64,000 nt of DNA from Glandiceps talaboti (lineage: Eukaryota; Hemichordata; Enteropneusta; Spengelidae). Position 1 is the stretch's first letter; each line of letters starts with the position of its first letter. A program made the position numbers and the translations under genes. The stretch lies in contig NC_135566.1 of the NCBI RefSeq assembly GCF_964340395.1, positions 6,801,001 through 6,865,000 of the forward strand, in the 5' to 3' direction. The notes under the pieces are model-generated. The model was not told the DNA's origin and ran no database searches. It saw nothing but the letters and a program-made list of their open reading frames with translations. This document shows positions 7,171 through 61,982 of the stretch, one piece after another.

Positions 7171-7247
<77 letters not shown>

Positions 7248-11008: not shown

Positions 11009-12301
11009 TCTAGTAGTGTCTTTCATATGGATTTGAGTGTCTGTTAAAGATTTGAGCTCAAAATAAGAATTACCCAAATAACACTGTGTCTTGATTGACG
11101 AACATTTTTAGTGCTTAATTTGGAATTTATTTCATGCAAGTTAACACTTCAGTGACATCAAACTGGCTTGACAGTGACAGATTTTGTCCATAGAATAATT
11201 GTTTGAAAAATGAAACACATGCAGCTCAGTGGCACGTTTAATTTGGTAGGTACTATTACTAAATGTGGGGCGATGTGACCCTAATATTCAAGGTTGCCAC
11301 TGATTGGAAAATATACATATACTTAATCACTCATTAACAATACAACCAACAGATGTGTTTGATTCCTTTGTTTTCAAACCAATCAGAATGAACCTTGTAA
11401 AGTGTTTCACAATATCTGGTAAATATGGTACATTGTATGATAACATCTTTGCTCGGACTCATGACAATGTTGAAAGTCATGATGTGGAAAACAGTCAATG
11501 ACAACGGTAATCGATAACACAAAATTACACATTTAGAAATTGTATTCACCGATTCAAGCCAATCTTCTGTAAGGTGTAATAAAAATGGATGACTTTAACA
11601 AGGTTTGTGTCGTAAGTAAGTAAAAATGTTGAATTTGTAGCACAAGTTGACCATATACATCGCCGAAGTATTGTTTAGCTAATATACGTAGAGTCAGTGA
11701 TGTCTTTGGGCAGAATTTTTTCCATATTTTGGTAAATTGACCACCAAATCTAGGATGGTTGTCCGTATTTACAAACACCTTCGTCGTTTCGCCGGTAAAA
11801 GCAAATGTCTATCCGCCAAATCTCCCTTTCCTACTTTGCTCTTAGAGGCATGTGTTTCTGTCAAGCCAGCTACTCTTTGGTTTTTTAATATTTCATTGTT
11901 AAGAAGTCGTGCTACCAGGAAACAGGTTTTTTACCCCCCCCCCCCCCAAGAGGTTAACAACTTGTCTCCTGTTAACCTCTGACCAATCGCAGGTTGAACA
12001 GCAGTCTATAAAGTTTCATGTGCCAAATCACATTGAAAAGAGATAAAGCTTCATCCAACGAAACATACGGCTGTGATTTGTAAACCTCAAAGTAGCACCT
12101 GGTTTCTATCAATACAATTATCTTTACTAACATCCAATCAAGGTAAGATATAGCATCTTGTTTCTTTCCGTACAAATAATCAATATCCAATCAAAGCTGT
12201 CCACGACTTGGAACTGTGTATATATATAACAAGGCATTGCGGGTGTACCGCCATTCCGGAGAATCTTTCACTGTGTTGTACTGGAGTGACTGAAAGACAA
12301 G
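11009..12301. other. Intergenic: FAAH A 3' flank and hevein gene 1 promoter region
   Basis: No coding exon was found. A possible poly(A) signal AATAAA lies at 11578-11583, and a C homopolymer run ends near 11947. The block is repeated at 20139-21435, and its 3' part at 27430-28217. Confidence 0.7.
12187..12228 (+). promoter_or_regulatory. CCAAT and TATA boxes of hevein gene 1
   Basis: CCAAT at 12187-12191 and TATATATATA at 12219-12228 lie about 115 and 83 bp before the ATG. Both elements, and the GCATTGCGGGTGTACCGCC block just downstream, are kept in the two paralogues (TATA at 21353-21362 and 28135-28144). This supports a shared core promoter. Confidence 0.65.
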
Positions 12302-15277
12302 ATGAACCGCTGTGGACTGGTTGTTGCCTTGCTGGCTGTCCTGGTTATAGTCCAGGCAAACGATGACAACCTGAGTGGAAAACTGGAGAACCTGCTGACC
12401 AAGTTGGCTAACATAACCGCGCATGAGGTAAAGTTTTCGTTAATCTGGTATTTTCATATCCATTTAGAGAAAATGCTATTTAAAACGTTACTGCAACATT
12501 TGAGAGGGCGAACCAATGAAAGTCTTGAGTATACTCGTCAGACATATTGCGTGCAGTGGGCCATTTCGTTTCAAAATGTGATACAATGAATTTAAGGCTC
12601 AAAATAGCTCGTCATATGGCTATTGATTTACCAATTCCTGGATTGTTCTAGTTGTTGTGTTCTTCGAAACATTGTGTAAAATCTTGGTGCACATTAACGC
12701 TACTGCTCGCCCATAACTGTAGACTCGTTTTTCAACTGAAATGTGTACAAAAACCCCACACGCTAAAACTACTTCAAAAGCGAATTGGCTTAACATGTGA
12801 TAATAGAGTTGCGCATGTACAAGAGGCTTGGTAACAAACGAGTCCTGGACATTCCTCTTATTAGTACCAGAACCTGTCGTATTTATATAAAATTCCTTGC
12901 GAGACCTTTAGTATCTAGACATTCGTCTGCATTTTTCTAGGAACACTAGGTACCTTTTTTCATCAATTTGTCACCTTTCTTGTGACAATGGCGTTTTCTT
13001 TAGCCAAGTCTCGTGTTGCAGAAATGGCGTGTGGAACACTGGATGTTGTACATGAACCCTTGTATTCTGAAAAGAAAGCGTTTTCCGAGAAAATAGTTGT
13101 TTGCATGTTCTCTCAACCTCTTTTTTTCTTTCAGAAACGGAACGGTACCAGCAATAACGAGAAGGGTAAGCAACTCCATCTATTCATTTGTCTTTGAGCG
13201 TGCTCCGAATGATCACTTGTGAAAAAAGGTTTTGACCACATGCTTGCAGAGGTTTTACTTCTTGATGTAGTCTTCATAGAAACGTTCAAAATGTACTATT
13301 TTACAAAACTCCAGGAGCAATGACAAAGTTATGGTCAGGTTTACCTGTTGGACACTTCTCCTGGCACCAACTATTGACTACGCATCTTATAAATCTACAA
13401 CTTGGTCATTTTATTCATACTGTATTTGGTCACTACATTTTCTCAGTTGATAAACCTACAGTTTCAGTCGTCCATTTCGGTATGCATAATGTACATTAAA
13501 GAAAATGATTTCACTTTTACCACAGTCTTGATACGGACTTTGTATTTGTCGAGACAAAATGTGACAAATGTTATTACCTCCCAAGGTTTTCACAACCGAT
13601 ACCGTTTACAGGAAATCCCAAAACATAAGGAGCAGTCGGGCTTTCTTGTAAGATTTCAGAGTTAAATAAGTTACAAAAAGATGCTATTTTATCACCCATC
13701 ATCGTATGCAAATTGATGGCAGTAATCCATACAAAATATGCAAGAGGCAAAATAAGTCTTGACTGGACTTGCCGTTCATTGATCTTTCACAGGTTTCACA
13801 TTCAGATTGTCGCGTTTAAAATTTCAGACTATCGTCTTAGCCTCATCTGGCCTCCCTACTATAGAGAAGACGGGAGATGTGGACCAGGCTTTATAGCACC
13901 GAATGGTGAGGTAGCAGAGTGTAACCCGTTGGGTGATGCACCCTGCTGTTCCAACTATGGCTGGTGTGGTTTTGGCGATCCATGGTGTGCATGCAGTCAA
14001 TGTGTTTACTATCAACCCAGAGGTAATAAAATTTCTGGTCACTTCAAATATACTATGCAGGTTTCAAGTGATGTAAAGTATCACTATAGTATATCTTAAG
14101 AGTATTTAACGATGTTGGGAGTGTTTTGCTATTGTGTTCGCTCGAGTATTTGGCAGTAAGCTAAACAGAAAGCTTTATTCCCATATCTAATACTTTTTGT
14201 GGTTGCAATATTTTGTCCATGGCGTTGAGATTCGTTGTTACCAAAGAAACACAAACCTGGTTTCTATAACTGCACCATGGTCAGTCTAACCTCGATGACA
14301 ATATCTTCATCCCCAGAATATGTACTTATTATAGGTCTTAAGGTTTGTTTCAATCCCGGGTCATCGAATTAGTGGCATCTGAAGGTCTACATCTGATCAT
14401 TTTCGTTCTGAGCCAAAATTTCCTAAAACTTGCCTACAAAAATTGTAGCATTTGTTGTGATTTTGAGGGTATTTTCTTCTGTTTTGTGTTTTTTTTCCGT
14501 TCCGATGTTTAACTAACAATCACATTTCACACTTGCATTGCAATCATAATCGAAGTGGACCTTTTAAATATAACCTCATGTAAACATTTATATTCTGTTG
14601 TATTCTGTCGAATTCAGCTTACAGAGAGGACGGGAGATGTGGATCTGGTTATGTTGCCCCAAATGGTCAAACGGCAGAATGCAACCCGTCGGGTGACGCA
14701 CCCTGCTGTTCCAACTATGGCTGGTGTGGTTTTGGCGATCCATGGTGTGCATGCGGTGGATGTATTTACTATCACGGATATGCTGGTAAGAAGCATTTGA
14801 AATCTGTTGGGTAAAGATATGCAACAAAAGATGACACTATTGGCACTCTTAACATTTGAAGGATTGACGTCAAGACTACAGCTTTGTAATATAATTATTT
14901 CATGTATAGCCTTCGTAACGGTTTGGTTGAATAGTAGCCCAGATACACCATTTAATTCAAAGTTACGTGGTTGTCCAAAATGCGTTGTGAATTTGAGCAA
15001 AACATGTACAAGGTCGGACCAAAGAGGGAGGGTCTCGAAATAGTGTCAAAGAAGGAAAATCTGTACAGTAACTGCATGTCCAGAATATTTTTTTCCCAGA
15101 AACCAATTTCCACCAATACCAGATGTTCGATTGTTAAGAAATTAAGTTACTTTGAACTCTTTTAACATGCATATAATAATCATTCTGGAAACCATTTGTC
15201 TTTAACTCCTAGATGTAAACGTCTTAAAGAAAGACAACTCTACTCTGAGAGATGGATCTCGTGGAAATCACTACTGA
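12302..15277 (+). CDS. Secreted protein with two hevein-like chitin-binding domains (paralogue 1, 194 aa)
   Basis: Exons: 12302-12427, 13135-13165, 13828-14022, 14618-14785, 15213-15277; sum 585 nt, frame intact. Residues 1-19 (MNRCGLVVALLAVLVIVQA) form a signal peptide. A short amphipathic stretch follows, with NIT and NGT sequons and a Lys-Arg pair at the exon 1/2 junction. Two cysteine-rich domains follow (residues about 53-117 and 118-173), each encoded by one exon with phase 1 at both ends. Each domain has eight Cys in hevein order, including CCSNYGWCGFGDPWC, where the Ser and the aromatics correspond to the sugar-binding residues of hevein-type (CBM18) lectins. A hydrophilic tail ends the protein. 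Binding of chitin or GlcNAc is inferred from the family; a defence or cuticle/mucus role is speculation. Compared with paralogue 2, one domain exon is deleted near 13780. The first domain carries an N-terminal insertion of about 10 residues (RLSLIWPPYY). Confidence 0.85.
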
Positions 15278-16576
15278 TGTACGCAAAGAAACTCCAACGC
15301 TAAATCCAATATACAGGATGGCGGATGAGATCGTGTGCTGAATGTAAACAGCAAAAGTATCTTTAAAAATGGCTTACTCTTCAGGAATAATCTGCATATT
15401 TTTGATGGGCAGTTTGGACTAACTGTAATTTATTTGAGACAGTTCAGATTGCTTTAAATGTTTTTATTCTTTGGATAGCAAAGGCGTTATTTTTAAAGTC
15501 CCTTTCAGAGTCGTTTGCCCCTCCTGATGAGGTAATTACTTTTTTTTGGAATATTTTTCTGAAATGCATTATATTGGTTGTTTTGAACTACAACTTACAA
15601 GCTTGGTTTGTTTGACGGTACCAACTTTTTTAAATCGTTTTTTTCTAACGAAATAGTTTTTTAGAGTTGAGAATTTCTTTAGTGCATTGGAAAACTTATG
15701 ATCTGCATTTTACTGTAAACTTGTTTACAAGTTATTTAGTAGTGTGGTGAACATTCCATGACTAATTCTGTACAGTTTTGTTCCCAGTAGTTTATTTTAT
15801 TTATGGAGGCGACTTGAGCATTTGTTTTGTACAGAAAATTGTTTTTTTAATGAAGCTTGTTTTCAATAAAGTTCTGATTAAGCCAATGTTTTACCTATCT
15901 TTACTTTTAGTAGACTAGTGTTTGAGTGTCAGTTCGATGATAGCTGAGTGGTTTGAAAGAATGCCCTATCCTACCCCTACAATGATTATTTAAACATCAC
16001 CTTGTCTATTGCTTTTGGTCAAAACTTTTCTCCCTTGGAAATGTTATCTTGGAAGTGTGAATCCTGACTGGTTCATTTTTGGCCAAACTTTAGAGGGAGG
16101 TAGGGAGCTTTTGAGAATTTGAAAGAACATGTCAATCTAATGTTCTGATTCTCTGCACACTGATTTACGTCCACCCATCTGGCACCTAACTTGATAATTC
16201 ACTAGCTGCTAATTTACATACAAAGTTAACACTCGCTGATTTTCATGCCAACCCAACATGCTTGACCAGGGTTAAACTTGAGGTCACCATTTTATGACAT
16301 GGCATTTATTGCAGTTACAAAGTTGCATAGACTTCTTGGTCTGTTTCACATTGTTTTTAAAGTATAAAACATAGCATAGTAGTACAAAGCGAATTATCCA
16401 TATTGCCACTTCAAAATCTACAGCAATAGACAACAATACAAGAGACCTTATTCCGCTTTTAATGATAACGCTAAGAACTCTGGGATACTTGCTGCAAATG
16501 ACATTTACCAGTGTATTACGTTCTAGGACGACACACACTGTGCATGGGCCAGAATTTCAGGTTAAGACACATCAGG
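15278..16576. other. Hevein gene 1 3' UTR and flank of FAAH pseudogene
   Basis: The long 3' UTR runs to about 15890. After it comes non-coding DNA that is the upstream region of the FAAH-type exon at 16577. From about 16115 it is nearly identical to 26025 onward. No other coding signal was seen. Confidence 0.6.
15865..15870 (+). terminator. Poly(A) signal of hevein gene 1
   Basis: AATAAA about 590 nt after the stop. It is conserved in the same context (TTTTCAATAAAGTTCTGAT) at 25765-25770 and, slightly altered, at 33237-33242. Confidence 0.7.
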
Positions 16577-19500
16577 ATGTCGGTACTGGACTGGATAAAG
16601 GAACTATTGGAGACATGGGGAAGAAAAGCGTTAATAGCAGCCCTGATGGTAGTGGTTGAGGGTGCGTATCTCGGAAAACAAGCCACAGACCGAAGAAAAC
16701 TAAAGGCAATATATAGACACGCTGCTCTCGACAGACGACAGGTAGCATCTGACATGAAGATTGAACTTGCCAAGAAACACTGTAAACATTTAAAGATCAT
16801 AGTTTTTATTTTGATAAATCAAAAGGTTATATATAGAAATACATTATACTGGAACAGCATAATACTGATCGGCACTGTGTCTCATCTGTAATTGTGTGCT
16901 AACAACACACATATACCACTTTATAGGACATAATGTACAATTTCCCAGCCTGAACTAAAGGGAACGATGTTTACTCAGTATATATGATTACATTGATCTT
17001 CAAAATAACAATGTACTATAAATGATGTCACATCCCTGCCTCGGCATCAAGTTGCATTAAACCTTCCATTTTCCACAAATAGTTAGTTGCCTGTGTCTCT
17101 CCGAGTATGTGTTTGAGACATGTTTTGTACATGAAAATACTAAAAAGGTAATGTGCAGTTAAAGTGGACACACTGAAATCATGACCTTTGGCAAACGACA
17201 AGGTTATAGTCTCTGGACATGCTCGATTGTGCACTATCAATAAACCGAGGTCAATATTGGGGAGTCATTCCAATCCGTTCGAAGTCCTAACAAAAATCTA
17301 CTCTCCAGATGATAACTGCTGACACTCTTTTCATAAGTTTTCTCTGTAAATCATTGTGAATGACACTTATTCATGTTGTTGTAGTCACCATCTCAGTTTA
17401 CAATAGTGGTCCTTTGTACAATGAATGGGTAGTCATTTTGGGCTTTTTCATAAACAATTGTAATTTTTCAAGTAGAAACCAAAGTAAGTTATTTTATTGA
17501 TTAAAAACATTCCAAAATAGTAGGCTACCCTTTTCTCATCCACAAAGCCACTTCAATGTATGTTCAGAGACAGAGGTTAATGAACGCAAATAATACATAG
17601 ATGACCTTGAGGTAACTTCTACATTCTCTAACTACCATGAGATGTTGTCTCGTGACGTTTTCTTCAACAGTGCTACATTGCCTTCATTGGGCACAACAAA
17701 AATCTTACCAACAGAGATATTTGTCGGGTAAGACGATACAGTGTAACAATTATAGTTTTTGTAATTTTAATCATAATATTTATGTGACAGTTGTGAATGG
17801 CTCAGTGAACACTGATATTCATTTAACGTCTATATGATTGTTGATATTGTTGTGTCATCTGACTATTACATTGTTATATCCTACAGTGGGAAAGGCGAAC
17901 CAACTGTTGTCCCTGAACAGAAATGAGGTAAGTAGTTATATACTTAGCAATATGATGTTGTTGCTTTCTTAGTAGTCATATAATCTGTGTAGTCAATAAT
18001 ATCATAACTAGGCAAAGCCCATAAGCTCGAGCAGGGTAGATTCATTTGTGACCGGCTGCCTCTCAATGATATGGTAGATAGCGGCCTCCGCGTGGAGAAT
18101 GCGCATACGATATAGAGGTACATGCATAGTCATTGTGCCGCAATGCGTCCTTGGGTAAAACCCACCAACAAACATCACATAGACAATCGCACAGTATATA
18201 GGGTGTGCATGTGTACTAGTCATTGAGCCGATACGCGGCTGCTGCATGAGCTACTACAGTTGAAAAACACAATAATGCTTAAATGAGTATTCTGGTTATT
18301 CTGTATTACTATTGATTTTTCAAGTATAATTTTAAAAACAATCAAAAGAAAAGCTTTATATACTATGTAAGTCTTTATCATTTTAGGGTGTGGTAGGTAA
18401 AGGTAATGGAGAGGTCTATGAAAACATAGGTTGAACAGGTCTCCGTTCATGCATTTACAACATTTCAATTTGGCTATGAAATTGCAACACCATACTGGTG
18501 AAAGTATTGGCCATATTTACTTATAATTTAGACCAAATTCTAAACCATTTGCATATGGTTGATTGCTGTGACAAATAGCAGAGTATATTGAGTTTTTCGA
18601 ATCATTTTTCACCGTCCCTGGCATTAATGGTCCAATGGATCGTGATGTTGATACCCTGGTACTTACTATGAAGGCTTTACTACAACCTGAAATGTATCAT
18701 TTAGACTGTGGCATTGTACCTTTGCCTTTTAATGAGAACTAATTTGACTTGATTTGCAACCGGGATATATCCATTTTGATTGAATATAAGTTTTTCAATG
18801 AAATTCATGAGTGATGTTTTTATACTCAAGGGCTCAACCATGCTCTATTTCTACACCTGCCCATCATGCAATTGCCCACCGCAAAGATACACTATACAAA
18901 CTCTGAGATACAACACAACATCAACTTGGTGTTTCTCTGAAATAGCAAGTAATTGTGGGTGATGTAAAATCATGAAATGAGTCTTCAGAACCCATAGTTT
19001 ATGAACATGCCTTTATTCCCTGGAGTGGTATTCCCCTGTATATTGTATTATAATATCTTCTGATCTGCTTGCAAGCGATTTGTTCCTAGCAAGCAAAAAA
19101 GAGGGATCCTTTACGGTGTATTTGTTATTCGTTAGCTTATAGTATTCATCATTATACTACATACACGCAATACTGTGTATGTCCCTTAATTCAACAGCGT
19201 GTCTGTTGATATTGAAAACAAATAAGGCAGTGTGTATTGCACATATATTCAGACAAGAAACCTCTTACCATTAGTTATTAAGAGGATGATGGCCACTTTA
19301 CTCCAGTGCCATTCTGTAAACGTTCCGTTACCATGGCAGTAGAAGCTCTGAGGAAAGCCGGGCATAAGGTATATAATCTAATGACACCCGAATCATTACT
19401 TTTGTAAGAATCATTCACAGTAATATAAATTATTGTTACCATGAATGCAAATTTTGAGAAAAATATGTAATTTTTGTGAAAATGATATAGAATTTAGGTT

Positions 19501-20138
19501 AATGGTAACGTTTTTGGTCAAAACTATATAAATATATACTAAATATGGATTTTATCATCACGTCAGCTGGATACTCTCATCACTGTCATCATAACCACAG
19601 CTGCTTACCCTTTCGGTGATTAAACAAACTATCAAAGGTAATTATAATGAAATGTGATCCAATAAGTTTTCTGGATGTTTTATCAACATAAACATACTCA
19701 AGCAAAACTTTGTTTCTGAACAGAATGTACATGATTACACAAAACACTTTTCCCATCAACTTTGACATCATGTAAATAAGCCAACATCATGATGGTCAGA
19801 ACAGGGGATGGCTGGATATGAGCTTAGATAGTGACGTCATGCATCGTGTTTGTCAAACAATTATCAGATCAGACGACAGCTGCATCAAAAGCTGTTCGCC
19901 GATGAGTCTGAATTCGTTTTAAAAGAACTGTACAAAAAACAACCACATTTTTAGGCAAGTTGTCCCTTGTCGAATTCTCCAATGCATTACTTGTGTTTAC
20001 TGACATGAATTTATTTTTCAGGCCTGTACTGGTTCGGTTGGACTACCAGTTGGTGTACAATGTGTGGCATTGCCATGGAGAGAAGAATTATGTCTTAGAC
20101 TGATGAAGGAAATAGAAACAGCCGTCAAACAGTATTAG
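16577..20138 (+). pseudogene. FAAH pseudogene copy B (exons 1, 7, 8, 9, 15 only)
   Basis: Recognisable pieces are exon 1 (16577 to about 16775), exon 7 (17887-17927), exon 8 (about 18615-18738), exon 9 (19243-19368) and exon 15 (20022-20138). Exon 1 has lost the conserved HTDDT end and its donor site. Exon 7 has a TGA at 17924-17926. Exon 8 has lost both splice sites (CACCG for the acceptor, and the donor deleted). Exon 9 has lost its acceptor AG and contains TAA at 19279-19281. Exons 2-6, with the triad Lys and both Ser residues, are absent: intron 1 passes directly into intron 6-like sequence near 17640. Exons 10-14 are absent through a junction near 19688. Exon 15 remains fully open and ends in the same KQY as copy A. 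The locus cannot encode an active hydrolase. Confidence 0.92.
18001..18252. mobile_element. ~250-bp insertion of unknown class inside pseudogene B
   Basis: It lies within sequence otherwise collinear with intron 7 of FAAH A (the empty site is near 5930-5942). The insert is richer in GC than its surroundings and has no copy elsewhere in this window. No clear terminal repeats, poly(A) tail or target duplication were identified, so it may be a SINE-like or other short element. Confidence 0.5.
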
Positions 20139-21435
20139 TCTAGTAGTTTCTTTCATATGGATTTGAGTGTCTGTTAAAGATTTGAGCTCAAAATGAAAAT
20201 TACCCAAATAACACTGTCTCTTGATTGACGAACATTTTTAGTGCTTAATTTGGAATTTATTTCATGCAAGTTAACACATCAGTGACATCAAACTGGCTTG
20301 ACAGTGACAGATTTTGTCCATAGAATAATAGTATGGAAAATGAAACACATGCAGCTCAGTGGCACGTTCAATTTGGTAAGTACTATTACTAAATGTGGGG
20401 CGATGTGACCCTAATATTCAAGGTTGCCACTGATTGGAAAACATACATATACTTAATCACTCATTAACAATACAACCAACAGATGTGTTTGATTCCTTTG
20501 TTTTCAAACCAATCAGAATGAACCTTGTAAAGTGTTTCACATTATCTGGTAAATATGGTACATTGTATGATAACATCTTTGCTCGGACTCATGAAAATGT
20601 TCCAAGAAATGATGTAGAAAACAGTCAATGACAACGGTAATCGATAACTCAAAATTACATATTGAGAAATTGTATTCAATGATTCAAGCCAATCTTCTGT
20701 AAGGTGTAATAAAAATGGATGACTTTAACAGTTTGTGTCGTAAGTAAGTAAGTAAAAATGTTGAATTTGTAGCACAAGTTGACCATATACATCGCCGAAG
20801 TATTGTTTAGCTAATATACGTAGAGTCAGTGACGTCTTTGGGCAGCATTTTTTCCATATTTTGGTAAATTGTCCACCAAATCTAGGATGGCTGTCCGTAT
20901 GTACAAACACCTTCGTCGTTTCGCAGGTAAAAGCAAATGTCTATCCGCCAAATCTCCCAGTCCTCCTTTTCTCTCAGAGGCATGTGTTTCTGGGTTAAGC
21001 CAGCTACTCTTTGTTTTTTAATATTTCATTGTTACGAAGTCGTGCTACCAGGAAACATGTATTTTACCCCCAGAACAGGTTAACTATTCGTCTCCTGTTA
21101 ACTTCTGTCCAATCGCAGGTTGAATCGCAACAGCAGTTTATAAAGTTCCATGTGCCAAATCAGATTGAAAAGAAGATAAAGCGTCATCGAAGGAAACATA
21201 CGGCTGTGATTCGTCAACCTCAACGTTGCACCTGGTTTCTACCCAATACAATTATCTTTACTAACATCCAATCAAGGTAGGATGTAGCACCTTGTTTCTT
21301 TCCGTACAAATAACCAATATCCAATCAAAGCTGTCCACGACTTGGAACTACGTATATATATAACACGGCATTGCGGGTGTACCGCCATTCCTGAGAATTT
21401 CTCACTGTGTTGTACTGTGGCGACTGAAAGACAAG
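20139..21435. other. Intergenic copy, hevein gene 2 promoter region
   Basis: Diverged copy of 11009-12301. TATA box at 21353-21362, about 74 bp before the 21436 start codon. No coding exon is visible. Confidence 0.65.
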
Positions 21436-24400
21436 ATGAACCGCTGTGGACTGGTTGTTGCCTTGCTGGCTGTCCTGGTTATAGTCCAGGCAAACGATGA
21501 CAAACTGAGTGGAAAACTGGAGAGCCTGCTGACCAAGTTGGCGAACATAACCGTGCACGAGGTAAAGTTTTCGTTAATCTGGCATTTTCATATTCATTTA
21601 GAGAAAATGTTATTTAAAACGTTATTGCAACATTTGAGAGGGCGAACTAATGAAAGTCTTTGATTATACTCGTCAGACATATTGCGTGCAGTGGGCCATT
21701 TCGTTTCTCAGACCTTCAAGTGGCAATTTCAGTCGCTCACTTTTTCAAAATGCGATACAATGAATTTAAGGCTCAAAATAGCTCGTCATATGGCTGTTGG
21801 TTTACCAATTCCTGGATTGTTGTAGTTGTTGTGTTCTTCGAAACATTGTGTAAAATTTTGGTGCACATTGACACTGCAGCTCGCCCTATAACTGTCGACT
21901 CGTTTTTCAACTGAAATGTGTACAAAAAACCCAAACGCTAAAACTTCTTCAAAAGCGAATTGGGTTAACATGTGATAGTTGCTCATGTTCAAGAGGCTTG
22001 GTAACAAACGAGTCCTGGCATTTTTGGACATTCCTCTTTATTAGTACCAGAACCTGTCGTATTTATATTAAATTCCTTGCGAGATCTTTAGTATCTAGAC
22101 ATTCGTCTGCATTTTTCTAGGAACACTCGGTTCCTTTTTTCATCAATTTGTCACTTTTCTTGTGACAGTGGTGTTTTCTTTAGCCAAGTCTCGTGTTGCA
22201 AAATGGCGTGTGGAACACTGGCTGTTGTACATGAACCCTTGTATTCTTAAAAGAAAGCATTTTCCGAGAAAATAGTTTTTTGCATGTTCTCTCAACCTTG
22301 TGAAATCGGAACTCTTTTTTTCTTTCAGAAACGGAACGGTACCAGCAATAGCGAGAAGGGTAAGCAACTCCGTCTATTCATTTGTCTTTGAGCGTGCTCC
22401 CAATGATCATTTGTGAAAAAGGGTTTTGACCACGTGCTTGCAGAGGTTTTACTTCTTGCAGGTCTTCATAGAAACGTTCAAAATGTACAATTTTACAAAA
22501 CTCTAGGAGCAATGACAAAGTTATGATCATGTTTACCTGTTGGACACTTCTGCTGGCCCCTACTATTGACTACGCATCTTATACATCTAAAACTTGATCA
22601 TTTTATTCATACTACTTTTGGTCACTACATTGTCTCAGTTGATAAACCTACAGTTTCAGTCAATGTACATTAAAGGAAATGATTTCACTTTACCAGTCTT
22701 GATATGGACTTTGTATTTGTCGACACAAAATGTGACAAATGTCATTTCCTCCCAAGGTTTTCACGTATAACCGATATCGGTTACAGGAAATCCACAAAAT
22801 ATAAGGTGCAGTCAGGCTTCCTTATAAAAATTTCAGAGTTGAATAAGCAAAGGTGCTATTTCATCATCCGTCATTATGCAAAATAAGTCTTGACTGGACT
22901 TGCCATTTCATTGACATTTCTTTAATTTCAGGTCTATCGGCAGCAAGTTTCAGAATTGATGAAAGATGTGGACAATATTATTTAGCACCGGATGGTTTAC
23001 CGGCGAAGTGCGACCCATCAAGTAGTGGTCCTTGCTGCTCCGAATGGGGCTGGTGTGGTATAGGCAACGACTGGTGTGCATGTGATGAATGCAAAGACTT
23101 TAGAATTAGTAAGTGGCATTTAAATTCTTCAACCTGTAAACTTCAATCTGTATAAAAAGCTACATATTGTACTACGTTCTTCTAATTTTGCATTATACTT
23201 TTCGGTCTCTTGTCTCGTTCAATCTTGATGACGGCTATAAATCGAATTTGTCCCTTCATACACGTGCGATTTAAAGTTGGTGAACATAATTGCAATCTTA
23301 GCTGAATGGAACTCTTCTGATCCTGCCCAGTGCGTTGTCTTAATGTTACTATCAAGAAACGCACCACACGACACCAAGGCAAGGCATGGCATATGCACCA
23401 CTGTGCAATATTTTACCAACAGCTCTCAGATTTGTACTGTTGGACATCATGCATCTCCTTGAAGTAAGACAAATCTCACCTGTGTACAGGGATTTGTAAG
23501 AATATTTTTGCCATTTGGGAAGGGTAGAATTGACACCGAGTTTCTGAATACATATTTTCATTGGTTCTGGTATCAATGATTTATTGTAGAAGTTGGCAAT
23601 TTTAGAAATTTGTCAACAGATTTCCTTGAAAGACATGCGAAATATTTGCTACAAAACTAAGGAAAATACACGCACCTGTTATGACTTTGCCGAAGATGTA
23701 AATTTATTTGAATAGGTATAACAAAAGAAATTTACATACTAAAGAAATCAGAATTTAAAATTATAATCAGGTTTCACATTCAGATTGTCTTTTAAATTTC
23801 AGACTATAGAGAAGACGGGAGGTGTGGACCAGACTTTATAGCACTGAATGGTGAGGTAGCAAAGTGTAACCCGTTAAGTGATGCACCATGCTGTTCCAAC
23901 CATGGCTGGTGTGGTTTTGGCGATCCATGGTGTACGTGCAGTGGATGTATTGACTATCGACCCAGTGGTAATAAAATTTCTGGTCACTTCAAATATGCTA
24001 TGCAGGTTTCAAGTGATGTAAAGTATCACTATAGTATATCTTAAGAGTATTTAACGATGTTGGAGTGTTTTGCTATTGTGTTCGCTCGAGTATTTGGCAG
24101 TAAGCTAAACAGAAAGCTTTATTCCCATATCTAATACTTTTTGTGGTTGCAATATTTTGTCCATGGTGTTGAGATCCGTTGTTACCAAAGCAACACAAAC
24201 CTGGTTTCTATAACTGCACCATGGTCAGTCTAACCTATTTTCATCCCCAGAATATGTACTTATTATAGGTCTTTAAGGTCTGTTTCAATCCGTCATCGAA
24301 TTAGTGGCATCTGAAGGTCTACATCGGATCATTTTCGTTCTGAGCCAAAATTTCCTAAAACTTGCCTACAAAAATTGTAGCATTTGTTGTGATTTTGAGG

Positions 24401-25198
24401 GTATTTTCTTCTGTTTTGTGTTTTTTTTCCGTTCCGATGTTTAACTGCCAAACAATCACATTTCACGCTTACAGTACAATCGTAATCGAAGTGGACCTTT
24501 TAAATATAACCTCATGTAAACATTTAATGTTGTATTCTGTCGAATTCAGCTTACAGAGAGGACGGGAGATGTGGATCTGGTTATGTTGCCCCAAATGGTC
24601 AAACGGCAGAATGCAACCCGTCGGGTGACGCACCTTGCTGTTCCAACCATGGCTGGTGTGGTGATGGCGATCCATGGTGTGCATGCGGTGGATGTATTGA
24701 CTATCGCGGCTATGCTGGTAAGAAGCGTTTGAAATCTGTTGGGTAAAGGTATGCAACAAATGATGACACTATTGGCACTCTTAACATTTGAAGGAGAGGT
24801 GTCGAGACTACAGATTTATAATATACTTATTTCATATGTAGCCTTCGTAACGGTCTTGGTTGAGTAGTAGCCCAGATACACCATTTAATTCAAAGTTACG
24901 TGGTTGTCCAAAATGCGTTGTGAATTGAGCAAAACGTGTACAAGGTTGGACCAAAGAGGGAGGGTCTCGAAATAGTGCCAAAGAAGGACAATTTGTACAG
25001 TAATTGCACGTCCAGAATATTTTTTCCCCAGAAACCAATTTCCACCAATACCAGAGGTTCGATTGTTAAGTTACTTTGAACTCTTTTAACATGCATATAA
25101 TAATCATTCTGGAAACCATTTGTCTAGATGTGAACGTCTTAAAGAAAGACAACTCTACTCTGAGAGATGGATCTCGTGGAAATCATTCTATCTACTGA
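21436..25198 (+). CDS. Secreted protein with three hevein-like chitin-binding domains (paralogue 2, 245 aa)
   Basis: Exons: 21436-21561, 22329-22359, 22932-23108, 23803-23967, 24550-24717, 25128-25198; sum 738 nt, frame intact. The signal peptide and propeptide-like segment match paralogue 1. Three domain exons follow, each with phase 1 at both ends. The first (22932-23108) is a divergent domain (CCSEWGWCGIGNDWC) found intact only in this paralogue; the other two match those of paralogue 1. Its CCSEWGW motif is closest to plant hevein (Ser, Trp and Trp of the sugar site). The third and fourth coding exons lack the 10-residue insertion seen in the equivalent domain of paralogues 1 and 3, so this gene may be nearest the ancestral form. 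The tail ends NHSIY. Function is inferred from domains only: extracellular, disulfide-rich and probably chitin- or GlcNAc-binding. Confidence 0.85.
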
Positions 25199-26486
25199 TG
25201 TACGCAAGGAAACTCCAACCCTAAATCCAATACAGGATGGCGGATGAGATCGTGTGCTGTACGTAAACAGCAAAAGTATCTTAAAAAATGGCTTACTGCA
25301 TATTTTTTCATAGGCAGTTTGGACTAACTGCAATTTGAGACAGTTAAGATTGTTTTAAATGTTTTTATTCTTTGGATAGCAAAGGCGTCATTGTTAAAGT
25401 TCCTTTCAGAGTCGTGTGCCCCTCCTGATGAGGTAATTACTTTTTTGGAATATTTTTTCTGAAATGCGTTATATTGGTAGTTTTGAACTACATGCTTGGT
25501 TTGTTTGAAGAAGGTACCAATTTTTTTAAATCGTTTTCCTAACGAAATAGTTATTTTTATAGTTGAGAATTTCTTTAGTGCACTGGAAAACATTTATGAT
25601 CTGCATTTTACTGTAAACTTGTTTACCAAGTTATTTAGTAGTGTAGTGAATCTTTCATGACTAATTCTGTACAGTTTTGTTCCCAGTAGTTTATTTTATT
25701 CATGGAGGCGACTTGAGCATTTCTTTTGTACAGAAAATTCTCTTTTTTTATGAAGCTTGTTTTCAATAAAGTTCTGATTAAGCCAATATTTTTACCTATC
25801 TTTACTTTTAGTAGACTAGTGTTTGAGTGAGTGTCAGTTCGATGATAGCTGAGTGGTTTGAAAGAATGCCCATCCTACCCCTACGAGGATTAGTTAAACA
25901 TCGCCTAGTCTATTGCATTTGGTCATAACTTTTCTCCCTTGGAAATGTCATCTTGGAAGTGTGAATCCTGACTGGTTCATTTTTGGCCAAACTTTAGAGG
26001 GAGGTAGGGAGCTCAATGAATGGAGAATTTGAAAGAACGTGTCAAACTAATGTTCTGATTCTCTGCACACTGATTTACGTCCACCCATCTGGCACCTAAC
26101 TTGATAATTCACTAGCTGCTAATTTACATACAAAGTTAACACTCGCTGATTTACATGCAAACCCAACATGCTTGACCAGGGTTAAACTTAAGGTCACCAT
26201 TTTATGACATGGTATTTATTGCAGTTACAAAGTTGCATAGACTTCTTGGTCTGTTTCACATTGTTTTTAAAGTATAAAACATAGCATAGTAGTACAAAGC
26301 GAATTATCCATATTGCCACTTCAAATTCTACAGCAATAGACAACAATACAAGAGACCTTATTCCGCTTTTAATGATAACGCTAAGAACTCTGGGATACTT
26401 GCTGCAAATGACATTTACCAGTGTATTACGTTCTAGGACGACACACACTGTGCATGGGCCAGGATTTCAGGTTAAGACACATCAGG
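25199..26486. other. Hevein gene 2 3' UTR and upstream flank of FAAH exon-1 copy
   Basis: Copy of 15278-16576. From about 26025 it is nearly identical to 16115 onward at a constant offset of 9910 bases. No other coding signal was seen. Confidence 0.6.
25765..25770 (+). terminator. Poly(A) signal of hevein gene 2
   Basis: AATAAA in the same context as in paralogue 1, about 570 nt after the stop. Confidence 0.7.
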
Positions 26487-26685
26487 ATGTCGGTACTGGA
26501 CTGGATAAAGGAACTATTGGAGACATGGGGAAGAAAAGCGTTAATAGCAGCCCTGATGGTAGTGGTTGGGGGTGCGTATCTCGGAAAACAAGCCACAGAC
26601 CGAAGAAAACTAAAGGCAATATATAGACACGCTGCTCTCGACAGACGACAGGTAGCATCTGACATGAAGATTGAACTTGCCAAGA
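26487..26685 (+). pseudogene. Damaged FAAH first exon (copy at 26487)
   Basis: It encodes MSVLDWIKELLETWGRKALI and the following membrane segment. Like the 16577 copy it lacks the HTDDT end and normal donor, and reads into KKHCKHLK. No exon 2 follows; about 0.9 kb later the sequence enters the next duplication unit. The lesion is shared with 16577, so the two arose from one already damaged copy or were homogenised. Confidence 0.88.
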
Positions 26686-28217
26686 AACACTGTAAACATT
26701 TAAAGATCATAGTTTTTATTTTGATAAATCAAAAGGTTATATATAGAAATACATTATACTGGAACAGCATAATACTGATCGGCACTGTGTCTCATCTGTA
26801 ATTGTGTGCTAACAACACACATATACCACTTTATAGGACATAATGTACAATTTCCCAGCCTGAACTAAAGGGAACGATGTTTACTCAGTATATATGATTA
26901 CATTGATCTTCAAAATAACAATGTACTATAAATGATGTCACATCCCTGCCTCGGCATCAAGTTGCATTAAACCTTCCATTTTCCACAAATAGTTAGTTGC
27001 CTGTGTCTCTCCGAGTATGTGTTTGAGACATGTTTTGTACATGAAAATACTAAAAAGGTAATGTGCAGTTAAAGTGGCCACACTGAAATCATGACCTTTG
27101 CCAAACGACAAGGTTATAGTCTCTGTACATGCTCGATTGTGCACTATCAATAAACCGAGGTCAATATTGGGGAGTCATTCCAATCCGTTCGAAGTCCTAA
27201 CAAAAATCTACTCTCCAGATGATAACTGCTGACACTCTTTTCATAAGTTTTCTTTGTAAATCATTGTGAATGACACTTATTCATGTTATTGTAGTCACTA
27301 TCTCAGTTTACAATAGTGGTCCTTTGTACAATGAATGGGTAGTCATTTTGGGCTTTTTCATATACAATCATGGTAATTTGTCAAGTAGAAACAAAAGTAA
27401 GTTGTTTTATTGATTAAAAACATTCCAAACTCGTTTCAAGCCAATCTTCTGTAAGATGTAATAAAAATGGATGACTTTAACACAGTTTTTGTAAGCAAGT
27501 AAAAATGTTGAATTTGTAGCACAAGTTGACCATATACATCGCCGAAGTTATATTTAGCTAATATACGTAGAGTCAGCGATGTCTTTGGGCAGCATTTTTT
27601 CCATATTTTGGTAAATTGTCCACCAAATCTAGGATGGTTGTCGGTATTTACAAACACCTTCGTCGTTTCGCCGGTAAAAGCAAATGTCTATCCGCCAAAT
27701 CTCCCATTCATACTTTGCTCTCATAAGCATGTGTATGTGGGTCAAGCCAGCCACTCTTTGGTTTTTAAATATTTCATTGTTACTAAGTCGTGCTACCAGG
27801 AAACACGTTTTTTTAACCCAATCCCCCCCCCCCCGCGATCGGGTTGAGAACTCGTCTCCTGTTAACCTCTGACCAATCGCAGGTTGAATTGCAACAGCAG
27901 TTTATAAAGGTTCATGTGCCAAATCACATTGAAAAGAAGATAGAGCTTCATCCAACGAAACATACGGCTGTGATTCGTCAACCTCAACATAGCATGCGCA
28001 CCTGGTTTCTACCCATATAAGTAACCAATACAATTATCCTTACTAACATCCAATCAAGGTAAGATATAGCACCTTGTTTCTTTCCGTACAAATAACCAAT
28101 ATCCAATCAAAGCTGTTCACGACTTGGAACTACGTATATATATAACACGGCATTGCGGGTGTACCGCCATTCCTGAGAATTTCTCACTGTGTTATACTGT
28201 AGCGACTGAAAGACAAG
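26686..28217. other. FAAH intron-1 remnant, unit junction and hevein gene 3 promoter region
   Basis: Intron 1-like sequence runs to the junction near 27429. The hevein gene upstream region follows (matching 11555 onward), with a C run at about 27823-27834 and a TATA box at 28135-28144. No coding exon was found. Confidence 0.65.
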
Positions 28218-31200
28218 ATGAACCGCTGTGGACTGGTTGTTGCCTTGCTGGCTGTCCTGGTTGTAGTCCAGGCAAACGATGACAAAGTGAGGGGAAAACT
28301 GGAGAACCTGCTGACCAAGTTGACTAACATAACCGTGCACGAGGTAAAGTTTTCGTTAATCTGATATTTTCATATCCATTTAGAGCAAATGCTATTTAAA
28401 ACGTTACTGCAACATTTGATAGGGCGAATCAATGAAAGTCTTTGATTATACTCGTCAGACATATTGTTGCAGTGGGCCATTTCGTTTCTCAGACCTTCAA
28501 GTGGCAATTTCAGTCGCTCACTATTTCAAAATGCGATACAATGAATTTAAGGCTCAAAATAGCTCGTCATACGGCTGTTGGTTTACCACCAATTCCTGAA
28601 TTGTTCTAGTTGCTGTGTTCTTCAAAACATTGTGTAAAATCTTGGTGTACATTAACGCTGCAACTCGCCCTATAACTGTAGACTCGTTTTTCAACTAAAA
28701 TGTGTACAAAAATAACACGCACTATAACTTCTCCAAAAGCGAATTGGGTTAACATGTGATAATAGAAAGAGTTGCGCATGTACACGAGGCTTGGGTAACA
28801 AACGAGTCCTGGCATTTTCGGACATTCCTCTTATTAGTACCAGAACCTGTTGTATTTACATTAAATTCCTTGCGAGACCTTTAGCTTCTTGACATTTGTT
28901 TGCATTTTTCTAGGAACACTAGGTACCTTTTTTCACCAATGTGTCACCTTTCTTGTGACAATGATGTTTTCTTTAGCCAAGTCTCGTGTTGCAAAAATGG
29001 CGTGTGGAACACTGGATATTGTACATGAGCCCTTGTATTCTTAAAAGAAAACTTTTTCCGAGAAAATAGTTTTTTGCATGTTCTCTCAACCTTGTGAAAT
29101 CGGAACTCTTTTTTTTCTTTCAGAAACGGAACGGTACCAGCAATGTCGAGAAGGGTAAGCAACTCCATCTATTCATTTGTCTTTGAGCGTGCTCCGAATG
29201 ATCACTTGTGAAAAAAGGTTTTGACCACGTGCTTGTTGAGGTTGTTTGCATATCGAACGATAACTTTATATTTTATTGACAAGGCTTTTACTTCTTAGAG
29301 TATAGTCTTCATAGAAACGTTCAAAATGTACTATTTTACCAAACTCCAGGAGCAATGACAAAGTTATGATCAGGTTTACCTGTTGGACACTTCTCCTGGC
29401 CCCTACTATTGACTACGCATCTTGTAGATCTAAAACTTGATCATTTTATTCATACTGCATTTGGTCACTACATTGTCTCAGTTGATAAACCTACATTTTC
29501 AGTCGTCCATTTCGGTATACACAATGTACATAAAGGAAATGATTTCACTTTTACCACAGTCTTGATATGGACTTGTATTTGTCGAGACAAAATGTGACAA
29601 GTGTCATTTCCTCCAATGTTTTCACATATAACCGATACGGGTTAAAGGAAATCCCCAAAGTACAAGGTGCAGGTCGGCTTCCTTGCAAGATTTCAGAGTT
29701 GAATTAGTTGCAAAGATGCTATTTTATCACCAGTCATCAGATGCAAATTGATGGCAGTAATCCATACAAAATATACTAAAGGCAAAATAAGTCTTAACTG
29801 GACTTGCCGTTTCATTGACCTTTCTTTAATTTCAGGTCTATTGGCAGAATGTTTTTTGCCATTTGTGAAGCGTAGACTCCAATTGAGTTTCTGAATACAC
29901 ATTTTCATTGGTTCTGGAATCAATGATTTATTGTAGAAGTTGGCAAATTGTGAAATTTGTCAACAGATTTCTTTGAAAGACGTGCGAAATATTTTCTACA
30001 AAACTAAGGAAAATGCATGCACCTGTTATGACTTTGCCAAAGACATAGATTTATTTGAATAAGTATAACAAAAGAAATTTACATACTAAAACTCGCTATA
30101 CAGTCTACCCAAGTTGGAAAGTGTTTTATTCAGCGTTTCATTTAGTTAGTACATTTTTATGCAACATGTGTAACTTTATTGATTCCTAAGTGTACTTTTA
30201 TTGATAAAACGCAATTAATGCTTAAAATATTGACAAATATGGGTCAATGAAGTTATGAAATACGGAACCTCCAAGAATACCAGAGTTGTGGGTAAAATAT
30301 TGTACAGTGTGCACCTGGAAGCATGGAAATAACTTGGAATTTAAAATTACTATAATCAGCTTCTAAAATCTAAGTGGCCCTTAATAGAAGCGGGCACTTG
30401 TAATTGGTCACCATCCTACTGCAAGTCCATGAAGCAGCGATTACGTCATAGGTTTACATACAAAATCCACTTATTCAGAGTCATTGGTATTAATTTCGAA
30501 TTCCAAACTGGTCCCCGAGTGCAATGTCTTGGCTTGATATGTAGAGGACTCGCTCCTTTTTAATAGATGGTCGCGTGGCTATATGAATTCCTGCTAGCTG
30601 CGCCGTGTATTACTACCGCAAATCTTGTCTCAATTCACGAGTGAAATCAAAATTTAAAATTATAATCAGGTTTCACATTCAGATTGTCGCGTTTAAAATT
30701 TCAGACAATCGTCTGACCCTCATCTGGCATTCCTACTATAGAGAAGACAGGAGATGTGGGCCCGGCTTTATAGCACCGAATGGTAAGCTGGCAGAGTGTA
30801 ACCCGTCAAGTGATGCACCCTGCTGTTCCAACTATGGCTGGTGTGGTTTTGGCGGTCCATGGTGTACATGCAGTCAATGTATTTACTATCAACCCAAAGG
30901 TAATAAAATTTCTGGTCACTTCAAATATACTATGCAGGTTTCAAGTGATGTAAAGTATCACTATAGTATATCTTAAGAGTATTTAACGATGTTGGAGTTG
31001 CTATTGTGTTCGCTTGGTTATTTGGCAGTAAGCTAAACAGAGCTTTATTCCCATATCTAATACTTTAGTGGTTGCAATTTTTTGACCATGGTGTTGAGAC
31101 TCGTCGTTGCCAAAGCAACATACGTACCTGGTTTCTATAACTGCACCATGGTCAACCTAGCCACAATGACAATATCCACATCCACATCCATATCCACATC

Positions 31201-32699
31201 CCAAAACATGTACTTATTGGAGGTCTTAAAAGTATGTTTCAATCCCGGGTCATCGAATTAGTGATATCTGAAGGTCTACATCGGATCAGTCTTTTTCTAA
31301 GCCAAAGTTTCCTAAAACTTGGCTGCAAAAATTGTAGCATTTTGTTGTGGTTTTGAGGGTATTTTCTTCTGCTTTGTATTTATTTCCGTTCCGATGTTTA
31401 ACTGCCAAACAGCCACATTTCTTTTTTGAATTTCTGAATTTCTGTTCAATTTGTATTCTGTCAAATCCAGCTTACAGAGAGGACGGGAGATGTGGACCTG
31501 GTTATCTGGCCCCAAATGGTCTAACGGCAGAATGCAACCCGTCAAGTGATGCACCCTGCTGTTCCATCTATGGCTGGTGTGGTTTTGGCGATCCATGGTG
31601 TACATGCAGTTTATGTATTGACTATAGCGGATATACTGGTAAGAAGCGTTTGAAATCTGTTTGGTAAAGATATGCATCAAAAAATGACACTATTGGCACT
31701 CTTAACATTTGAAGGATTGGCGTCAAGACTAAAGCTTTGTAATATAATTATTTCATATGTAGCCTTCGTAACGGTCTTGGTTGAATAGTAGCCCAGATAC
31801 ACCATTTAATTCAAAGTTACGTCGTTGTCCAAAATGCGTTATGAATTAATTGAGCAAAACGTGTACAAGGTCGGACCAAAGAGGGAGGGTCTCGAGATAG
31901 TGCCAAAGAAGGGAAATTTGTACAATATGTACATCCAGAATATTTTGTTTCCGTTCCGATGTTTAACTGTCAAACAATCACATTCCATTTGCATTTCAAT
32001 CGTAATCGAAGTGGACCTTTTAAATATAACATCATGTAAACATTAGATGTTGTATTCTGTCAAATTCAGTTTACACAGCTTACACAGTGTACAGAGAGGA
32101 CGGGAGATGTGGATCTGGTTATGTGGCCCCAAATGGTCAAACGGCAGAATGCAACCCGTTGAGTGCCGCACCCTGCTGTTCCATCTATGGCTGGTGTGGC
32201 ATTGGCGATCCATGGTGTACATGCAGTTTGTGTATTGACTATCGCGGATATGCTGGTAAGAAGCGTTTGAAATCTGTTTGGTAAAGATATGCAACAATAC
32301 ATGACACTATTGATGACACTCTTGTTAACATTTCAAGGAGTGGCGTCGAGACTACAGCTTTGTAATACAATTATTTCATGTGTAGCCTTCGTAACGGTCT
32401 TGGTTGAATAGTAGCCCAAAATGCGTTATGAATTAATTGAGCAAAACGTATACAAGGTCGGACATAAAAAGGAAAATTTGTACAGTAATTGTACATCCAG
32501 AATATTTTTTTTCCAGAAACCAATTTCCACCAATACCTGAGGTTCGATTGTTAAGAAATTAAGTTACTTTGAACTCTTTTAACATGCATATAATAATCAT
32601 TTTGGAAACATTTTGTCTTTACTCCTAGATGTAAACGTCTTGAAGAAAGACAACTCTACTCTGAGGGATGGATCTCATGGAAATCATTCTATCTTCTGA
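28218..32699 (+). CDS. Secreted protein with three hevein-like chitin-binding domains (paralogue 3, about 252 aa)
   Basis: Exons: 28218-28343, 29124-29154, 30705-30899, 31471-31638, 32088-32255 (alternative starts 32070 or 32079), 32629-32699; sum 759 nt with the 32088 start, frame intact. It has the same signal peptide and Lys-Arg segment as the paralogues. The divergent domain exon of paralogue 2 is deleted here: only its acceptor and about 12 nt remain near 29837-29848, followed by sequence matching the downstream intron. The last-domain exon is instead duplicated (31471 and 32088, about 0.6 kb apart), restoring three domains. Motifs are CCSNYGWCGFGGPWC, CCSIYGWCGFGDPWC and CCSIYGWCGIGDPWC, each with eight Cys in the domain. 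The tail ends NHSIF. Function as for the paralogues, inferred only. Confidence 0.83.
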
Positions 32700-33242: not shown

Positions 33243-33662
33243 GTTCTTTTCAGCCAATAGTTTTACCTGTCATCTTTACTTTTAGTAGACTGTACTGTTT
33301 GAGTGAGTGTCAGTTCGATGATAGCCGAGTGGTTTGAAAGAATGCCATATCCTACCCCTACGAGGACAAGTTGAACATCGCCTAGTCTATTGCTTTTGGT
33401 CAAAACTTTTCTCCCTTGGAAATGTTGTCTTGGAAGTGTGTTATTTTAAGGTCTCATGAATCCTGACTAGTTTATTTTTGGCCAAAGTCTAGATGTGGGG
33501 TAGAGCAAAGGAATGGTGAAATTTGGAAGAACGTGTCAAAAATAATATGCTGATTCTCTGCACACTGATTTACGTCCAGCCATCTGGCACCTATCGTGAT
33601 ACATCGAATTTTTTTAATTCACGTTACCTGCTAATTTATATACAAAGTTAACACTACGTGTA

Positions 33663-34140
33663 GACTGTCGACAGTCGTTCGTGCCTTTTTGCTACGTTTT
33701 ATCTAAAACTGAAGTCATTGCCTCGCACCGATCCACAGGGGCGTGTAATATTGCATAGATTGTTGTTTTCCAGGTCTACAGACTAAATATAACAACCTTT
33801 TGAATATATATTCCTACCTGTATAGGGAAAGAGAGATTTATAGTATACGTAGTACTATACTAGATCGATACATTTGTAGCAGCAAGATTCGTATGATATT
33901 TTCCTAAGAAAACGGAAATCTAAGCAATAATACACGCCCCTGTGCACCGATCCGGAGCAATACTATAACCGCGTACTGATCAGCGAGTGCCGGAGGCACG
34001 AGCGAGAGTCGTTCGTCGATCGTGCCTTCAGCAATCGCAGTTCCTATCAGTACGCATTAGTATTCAGTGCTACGGAGCGAGGCGCCGACTTTGATTTAGA
34101 TGAAACGTAGCGAAAAAGGCATGAACGACTGTCGACAGTC
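33663..34140. mobile_element. Non-autonomous inverted-repeat element (MITE) flanked by TA
   Basis: The ends are inverted repeats of about 40 bp beginning GACTGTCGACAGTCGTTC, and TA lies on both sides. Further inside is a second inverted pair (ACAGGGGCGTGTA near 33737 and TACACGCCCCTGTG near 33941). The same site is empty in units 1 and 2 (near 16235 and 26145). There is no transposase ORF. The TA target suggests a Tc1/mariner-type element, but this is inference. Confidence 0.8.
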
Positions 34141-34531
34141 TAATTTACACGCTAAGCGAACATGCTTGACCAGGGTTCAACTGATGGCCATATGTTAGTA
34201 TCTAGGTTAACATACTTGTGCTTAACATGTCACCACTTTATGACACGGCATGTATTGCAGTTACACTTCCTGGTCTGTTTCAAATTGTTTTTTAAAGTAG
34301 AAAACATAGCATAGTTGTTATACAAAACGAATTATCCATATTGCCACTTCAAATCTACAGCAATAGACAACAGTACAGGAGACCTTATTCTACTTTTAAT
34401 GATAACGCTAAGAACTCTGGGATGCTTATTGCAAATGACATTTACCAGTGTGTAACCGCACTGTAATACGTTTTAGGACGTCACACACTGTACACGTCAC
34501 AGGTCAGGATTTCAGGGTAAAACGCATCAGT

Positions 34532-34750
34532 ATGTCGGTACTGGACTGGATAAAGGAACTATTGGAGACATGGGGGAACAAAAACGTTATAGCGGCCCTG
34601 ATGGTAGTGGTTGGAGGTGCGTATCTCGGAAAACAAGCCGCAGACCGAATGAAACTGAAGGCAATGTATAGACACACTGCTCTCGACAGAAAACAGGTAG
34701 CATCTGACATGAAGATTGCACTTGCCAAGAAACTACACACAGATGACACG
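34532..34750 (+). other. Intact orphan FAAH first exon, possible alternative first exon of FAAH C
   Basis: It encodes 73 residues from MSVLDWIKELLETWGNKNVI to HTDDT and ends in phase 0 at a GT donor (GTAGAA), exactly like exon 1 of copies A and C. No exon 2 follows before the next first exon at 37355, so splicing to 38015 would give an open FAAH C isoform with a slightly different membrane anchor. It may equally be a silent relic. Confidence 0.75.
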
Positions 34751-37354: not shown

Positions 37355-45974
<8,620 letters not shown>

Positions 45975-61500: not shown

Positions 61501-61982
61501 TTCAATAAAATCACGAATTCTTATCGTAAGGAGCTCATAATTATCCAATCGTTGATCGAGTTGTAAAATATTCCCACGTTGATTGTCAATATTATAGCAG
61601 CAGCTGATGACCCAAGGTCAACATCCGGGTATTTTCATTATATACAGACCCCTTAGCATACGCATTGATAAATAATTAGAAATCAAAATAACTTTATTTT
61701 CTGGGATTTTATTTCATCTTTTTTGTCTCAAGAACATTTAAATTATATGATACGATGTATAATATGAAGTAATCTGTATGCAACATGCTTTATTTTTGAA
61801 TGTACAGAAACGCCTTTTCGGCCGTATTGCAAATATTGGTTGCTTAGAGGGTTTTACCAGGAAATCAACGAAACCACTTCTTACTCGTAATCTGTAGTAT
61901 AATCGGTCCGTCACGATCTACGACGATTTTGCACCATGATTTCGTGAATTTCAACTTCGCTTACAAGGTAAAGCATATATCG
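55535..61982. other. Intergenic region between the divergent PhnD-like and SH2B genes
   Basis: The two genes are transcribed away from each other, so both promoters lie here. Only simple repeats are recognised: GATT units near 56112-56139 and the 24-bp minisatellite. The stretches 55577-57218 and 58270-61982 hold no convincing exon on either strand and no RNA gene that could be recognised. Confidence 0.55.
57219..58268. repeat. 24-bp minisatellite, about 1.05 kb
   Basis: Unit ATGATGTCATCATATCTTAG followed by ATAC, with 21-bp variants lacking three bases. Units vary mainly at two sites (TCATCA/TCATTA and GATAC/GATGC). Because 24 and 21 are both multiples of three, long frames stay open on both strands (repeats such as MMSSYLRY), but this is repeat structure and not coding sequence. 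Confidence 0.96.

Follow-up and report, generated by a model that had tools for sequence, protein, structure and literature searches.

Domain-exon turnover in a tandem cluster of putatively secreted animal hevein-domain proteins

Gene and exon layout of the cluster

We analysed a 64,000-nucleotide stretch of contig NC_135566.1 (hereafter the window), in which three tandem plus-strand genes, named H1, H2 and H3, are predicted from splice models to encode proteins of 194, 245 and 258 amino acids built from repeated eight-cysteine domains of the hevein type (Table 1). The cluster extends from the ATG of H1 to the stop codon of H3 (12302-32699), and the models contain five, six and six exons respectively, with GT/AG borders at every intron. 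The layout is common to all three genes: a hydrophobic leader exon (translated as MNRCGLVVALLAVLVIVQA in H1), a 31-base linker exon, two, three and three domain exons, and a tail exon whose translation begins DVNVLKKDNSTLRDGS. Domains were classed as A, B and C from their order, flanks and divergence; exon B measures 195 bases in H1 and H3 and 165 bases in H2. Every domain exon (eight of eight) starts and ends in phase 1, so adding or removing a whole domain leaves the reading frame intact.

Upstream of the coding regions, a TATA-like TATATATATAAC is located at -83 and CCAAT at -168 and -115 relative to the ATG of each of the three genes, and downstream of H1, H2 and H3 the first AATAAA is found at 15865, 25765 and 33237, respectively. 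A preliminary description, made from the sequence alone, had proposed three tandem paralogues over this interval, one domain per phase-1 exon, domain numbers of 2, 3 and 3, and a shared promoter, signal peptide and tail. The gene models agree with it on these points, the proposed signal peptide being seen as a hydrophobic leader; leader and tail are common to H1-H3 by alignment. The shared promoter and introns are nevertheless not separate evidence of selection, since they are explained by a segmental duplication that also carries exons of a second gene (see below).

Family membership and predicted glycan binding

All eight domains follow the framework C-x13-C-x7-CC-x5-C-x6-C-x-C-x2-C, with eight cysteines each and the core CC-x5-C-x6-C in every case. 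A six-frame scan of the window found this framework eight times, exactly at the domains of H1-H3, and not once in 20 mononucleotide shuffles. When a profile of the eight domains was compared to solved structures, chains of the amphioxus protein BbtPGRP3 came first (E-values 2.3e-16 and 2.9e-16), followed by nettle agglutinin at 1.3e-4, with plant lectins at this and weaker values. Among the 27 sequences listed up to an E-value of 1, the 25 besides the BbtPGRP3 chains are hevein-type lectins or peptides by name; a search with one domain also gave a weak unrelated chain, 8oks (E-value 0.58). More specifically, the chitin-binding domain (CBD) of BbtPGRP3 and all eight domains have the same cysteine gaps (13, 7, 0, 5, 6, 1, 2), and 24-28 of 51 positions are identical.

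The Pfam profile PF00187 (Chitin_bind_1), run as the CBM18 check, was returned at an E-value up to 10 for all four single domains examined and for all three full-length proteins, and full-length H2 (35.5 bits) and H3 (29.0 bits) exceed its cut-off of 27.8 bits. NCBIfam at an E-value up to 1 matched none of the eight domains. Scans of prokaryote genome contigs (95 pattern-matching stretches) and viral contigs (55) yielded no confirmed relative, a result of little weight as such contigs are unsuited to an animal domain.

An unrelated cysteine-rich family, for example CBM14/peritrophin, could merely resemble hevein; the present domains do depart from plant and fungal hevein spacing, both ahead of the CC pair and towards the C-terminus. 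We regard this explanation as extremely improbable given the PF00187 matches and the profile matches in the PDB, which are the amphioxus CBD and hevein-type proteins. CBM14/peritrophin-A identity itself was rejected, as no such family appears among the Pfam matches at an E-value up to 10. The kinship to hevein/CBM18 put forward in the preliminary description is retained: by sequence, the H1-H3 domains are assigned to the hevein/CBM18 superfamily, as an animal subtype of the amphioxus type.

The binding site of BbtPGRP3 consists of Ser51, Trp53, Trp55 and His62, and its CBD binds chitin, an activity abolished by W53A/W55A (PMC4610682). The equivalent of Ser51 is serine and that of Trp55 is tryptophan in all eight domains, while the place of Trp53 is taken by tyrosine in five, histidine in two and tryptophan in one. 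The fourth position, His62 in BbtPGRP3, is tryptophan throughout. Most domains are likely to bind chitin or glycans containing N-acetylglucosamine (GlcNAc).

We propose that H1-H3 are, with good probability, secreted, soluble and multivalent binders of chitin or GlcNAc built of animal-type hevein domains. The products would be secreted via the hydrophobic leader. Each domain would presumably be held by four disulfides, with the serine and aromatic side chains creating a binding site for chitin and other glycans that contain GlcNAc, and a string of two or three domains would bind polymeric chitin, or the glycans of microbes or mucus, with higher avidity. The proteins would most likely act in an epithelial secretion, coating or agglutinating microbes or holding chitin or mucus. 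Deletion and tandem duplication, and probably also exchange between adjacent copies, change the family.

The same binding-site residues apply equally to a structural function, in which the proteins would cross-link the animal's own chitin in an endogenous matrix (shell, chaetae, tube or peritrophic membrane) and have no role in defence. Such a function is compatible with chitin binding, and tandem chitin-type domains with short linkers would suit cross-linking. We consider it possible, if somewhat unlikely: no long repetitive low-complexity stretch was seen in these proteins of 194-258 amino acids, and the closest known relative serves a peptidoglycan-cutting enzyme (PMC4610682). Neither point is decisive.

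The translations also bear on whether H1-H3 are precursors of antimicrobial peptides, from which part of the leader would be removed and the domains, or the whole string, freed by proteolysis in the manner of hevein-like plant peptides. Each domain, with its eight cysteines, forms a separable unit encoded by one exon, and two basic pairs are present in all three proteins, Lys-Arg in the linker ahead of the first domain and Lys-Lys in the tail past the last one. These pairs could free the string, and they leave room for trimming of part of the leader and of the tail. However, no pair of basic residues occurs between successive domains in the three translations, and the mature proteins are acidic (computed isoelectric point 4.9-5.8, with cleavage assumed after residue 19). 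We consider the precursor hypothesis quite improbable.

Several observations count against the proposal of secreted multivalent binders. The leader was judged hydrophobic by eye, and it gives a weak Pfam match to Flp_Fap (14.7 and 11.4 bits, below the cut-off of 32.2). Full-length H1 (19.4 bits) and all four single domains examined out of the eight (14.3-23.8 bits) lie below the PF00187 cut-off. The amphioxus CBD with proven chitin binding, run as a control, also falls below it at 23.9 bits, so the model underrates this animal type. Histidine replaces the first aromatic residue of the site in two domains. AlphaFold2 models from two domain alignments (headed by H1 domain B and H2 domain A) reached a mean predicted local distance difference test score of 45.3 and 45.2, a confidence too low to be of use, and the fold assignment accordingly rests on sequence. 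Finally, substitution rates are only slightly lower in exons than in introns (0.054 versus 0.068 for H1-H2 and 0.080 versus 0.091 for H1-H3), indicating that constraint on the recent copies is either weak or in part counterbalanced by change.

Segmental duplication, exon turnover and constraint

Five tandem copies (F1-F5) of what is predicted to be a fatty-acid amide hydrolase (FAAH) gene flank and separate the three lectin genes, in the plus-strand order F1-H1-F2-H2-F3-H3-F4-F5. The copies were located using nine exon-like pieces of F5 as queries. Their identity is supported by Pfam, which assigned Amidase to four of seven window stretches, Phe_ZIP to one and no family to two, and by the best solved match of one FAAH exon, FAAH1 (E-value 9.1e-27). 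The arrangement indicates that the lectin cluster grew as part of a larger segmental duplication carrying FAAH exons. Plant or fungal contamination was rejected as a source of H1-H3, because they lie inside this duplicated unit on the same strand as the FAAH exons; an animal genome is further supported by the FAAH exons together with the Phe_ZIP exon within the window.

Exon gain and loss, which the preliminary description had suggested, can be seen here at the level of breakpoints. The domain A exon survives in H2 only. H3 aligns to H2 on either side of a gap at this exon (29557-29854 to H2 22694-22950, and 29853-30090 to H2 23505-23743) and keeps a short relic of it. The breakpoints of the loss differ between H1 (H2 22920/23768) and H3 (H2 22950/23505), and as the H1 deletion spans the entire H3 deletion, H1 may descend from an already deleted copy; its deletion could have been superimposed on that of H3 rather than be an independent loss. 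H3 has, in addition, duplicated its C exon in tandem with a spacing of 617 bases. A tree of the eight 153-base domain cores groups class B as one branch (support 95/100), while class C was not resolved as a single branch. Overall, two of the three copies are without one domain exon, at different breakpoints and with a relic left in one, and one copy has duplicated another domain exon. The cluster thereby documents clearly how exon units turn over in a family of lectins that are probably secreted.

In a three-way comparison of the units, 11 of the 13 windows between 14155 and 17516 show H1 and H2 as the most similar pair, and no pair is steadily closest upstream of 14155, a pattern that would be consistent with H1 and H2 having exchanged sequence later. 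Upstream of 14155, H1 and H2 are 91-96% identical in nine of ten windows, the tenth, at the lost exon, being at 76%. At 16312-17084, the two units are 99.6-100% identical over three successive 250-column windows, which suggests recent gene conversion or unequal exchange. The H3 unit alone carries, at 33661-34142, a 482-base element with terminal inverted repeats (30 nucleotides at 97%, then 22 nucleotides at 91%) that is absent from the matching place in the H1 and H2 units and looks like a transposon insertion.

To describe constraint on the domains, ratios of nonsynonymous to synonymous substitution (dN/dS) were computed by NG86 on 51 codons, so that single values are rough. Across the 28 domain pairs, dN/dS is 0.14-0.34 in the 19 between-class pairs and 0.38-1.09 in the nine recent within-class pairs. 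The family had been described as fast-changing; this holds only in part, the higher ratios being confined to the recent within-class pairs. Two signal-plus-linker pairs with H3 show dN above dS, but these values come from just 9 and 8 changes in 156 bases, and no claim is built on them. The third exon-intron comparison, H2-H3, gives 0.094 in exons versus 0.207 in introns, the latter probably inflated by poor alignment around the lost exon.

The within-class dN/dS values, the close exon and intron rates in two of three comparisons and the degraded FAAH parts of the shared units would fit a cluster that is a by-product of segmental duplication with one or more dying copies. We think this unlikely. 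Open reading frames are intact in all three lectin genes and their introns keep GT/AG borders. Furthermore, with the first 30 bases of exon B and differences of entire exons set aside, the three gene comparisons contain only 1, 1 and 0 exon indels in 555, 584 and 561 aligned bases, both 6 bases long, compared to 28, 35 and 44 intron indels; in 21, 31 and 35 of these the length is no multiple of three. Constraint on the recent copies is visible mainly in this keeping of the frame. The FAAH copies between the lectin genes have decayed while the lectin frames in the same units stay open, an internal contrast that favours function.

Elsewhere in the window (GC content 0.365, CpG observed/expected 0.58), Rfam at gathering scores and tRNA scans gave no matches. 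A 51-base tandem repeat of 3.4 copies at 40125-40295 overlaps an exon-like stretch of F5. At 57219-58230, a 24-base minisatellite of about 43 copies is open on each strand (389 and 362 amino acids); being open on both strands, its long reading frames are no evidence of a gene. The stretch 61848-62702 holds a portion of a gene that encodes a phenylalanine zipper (Pfam Phe_ZIP, 4.8e-19), presumably as in SH2B adaptors.

Table 1. Coordinates of the lectin gene models, the associated rearrangements and the FAAH copies in the window.
Feature	Position	Strand	Remarks
H1, 194 amino acids	12302..15277	+	GT/AG splice model, consistent phases
H1 exons	leader 12302-12427, linker 13135-13165, domain B 13828-14022, domain C 14618-14785, tail 15213-15277	+	
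H1 upstream region	12002..12301	+	TATA-like -83 and CCAAT -168/-115, common to H2 and H3
H2, 245 amino acids	21436..25198	+	splice model
H2 exons	leader 21436-21561, linker 22329-22359, domain A 22932-23108, B 23803-23967, C 24550-24717, tail 25128-25198	+	
H3, 258 amino acids	28218..32699	+	splice model
H3 exons	leader 28218-28343, linker 29124-29154, domain B 30705-30899, C1 31471-31638, C2 32070-32255, tail 32629-32699	+	
H1 junction without domain A exon and flanks	13788..13790	.	alignment; H2 22920-23768 missing
Domain A exon relic in H3	29836..29854	+	retains the splice acceptor (up to 29835) and about 19 bases of the exon; remainder deleted
H3 tandem duplication making C1 and C2	31473..32514	+	31473-31952 versus 32090-32514, 79.9% over 488 columns
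FAAH F1	1957-10990	+	9/9 queries matched, one weakly (E-value 0.004)
FAAH F2, degraded	16571..20120	+	4/9 queries; catalytic Ser region unmatched; exon 19255-19371 has an in-frame stop
FAAH F3	26481..26687	+	only N-terminal hydrophobic exon, 1/9 queries
FAAH F4	34526..34753	+	only N-terminal hydrophobic exon, 1/9 queries
FAAH F5	37349-45962	+	query source

Comparison with known hevein systems

Plant hevein lectins such as wheat germ agglutinin and the nettle agglutinin UDA resemble the H1-H3 proteins in the core CC-x5-C-x6-C and in the serine and aromatic site. Both also consist of repeated hevein domains in strings, with no enzyme attached. Their similarity to the domains described here is far weaker than that of the amphioxus domain (best plant E-value 1.3e-4 versus 2.3e-16 for BbtPGRP3), and the frameworks differ: the first two gaps are longer here and the end is a compact C-x-C-x2-C, whereas plant hevein has longer C-terminal gaps. 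The classical plant and fungal start C-x8-C-x4-CC is replaced by gaps of x13 and x7.

Among fungi, the CBM18 domains of Batrachochytrium offer a parallel in that domain number likewise grew in a species-specific manner (PMC3569864). The motif printed there, X3CGX7CX4CCSX4CX6CX3C, differs from the framework of H1-H3; its start, CGX7CX4CCS, is said to be common to plant hevein (PMC3569864).

The preliminary description had called hevein domains typical of plants and fungi, a statement that needs amending: animal cases have been published (PMC4610682; PMC5297725), and the present domains match the amphioxus type and not the plant spacing. In the animal cases already known, amphioxus PGRPs and nematode chitinases, the domains are fused to enzymes. 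The nematode paper, which calls itself the first report of hevein domains in animals, links every hevein-like domain there to a GH18 chitinase domain (PMC5297725). In the nematode domains, Ala or Gly stands in place of the first aromatic residue and Tyr in place of the second Trp (PMC5297725), whereas H1-H3 keep this Trp and have no enzyme.

Amphioxus BbtPGRP1-3 (PDB 4Z8I, 4ZXM) carry a single N-terminal hevein-like chitin-binding domain fused to a peptidoglycan amidase (PMC4610682). In H1-H3, two or three domains stand without an enzyme, and Pfam at an E-value up to 10 listed no PGRP amidase domain for the three full-length proteins. No free-standing multi-hevein secreted animal protein was seen among the literature matches listed, judged by titles and the starts of abstracts; this is weak evidence, as subscription journals are mostly uncovered, and genes of this kind may well be present among automatically annotated ones in animal genomes.

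BbtPGRP3 is the single solved and binding-tested example of the animal hevein type that we found, and the cluster adds eight sequences to this type. The amphioxus authors propose a plant-to-amphioxus transfer of the domain and mention that over 250 hypothetical chitin-binding domains, some of them plant-like, are cited for the genome (PMC4610682). The shared framework would argue against such a transfer, provided that the window comes from an animal other than amphioxus. We see about an even chance that animals own an ancient hevein branch with a distinct cysteine framework, used for free-standing multivalent lectins here and as an add-on to PGRPs in amphioxus. With the eight new sequences, a plant origin and an old animal origin of animal hevein domains become testable against each other.

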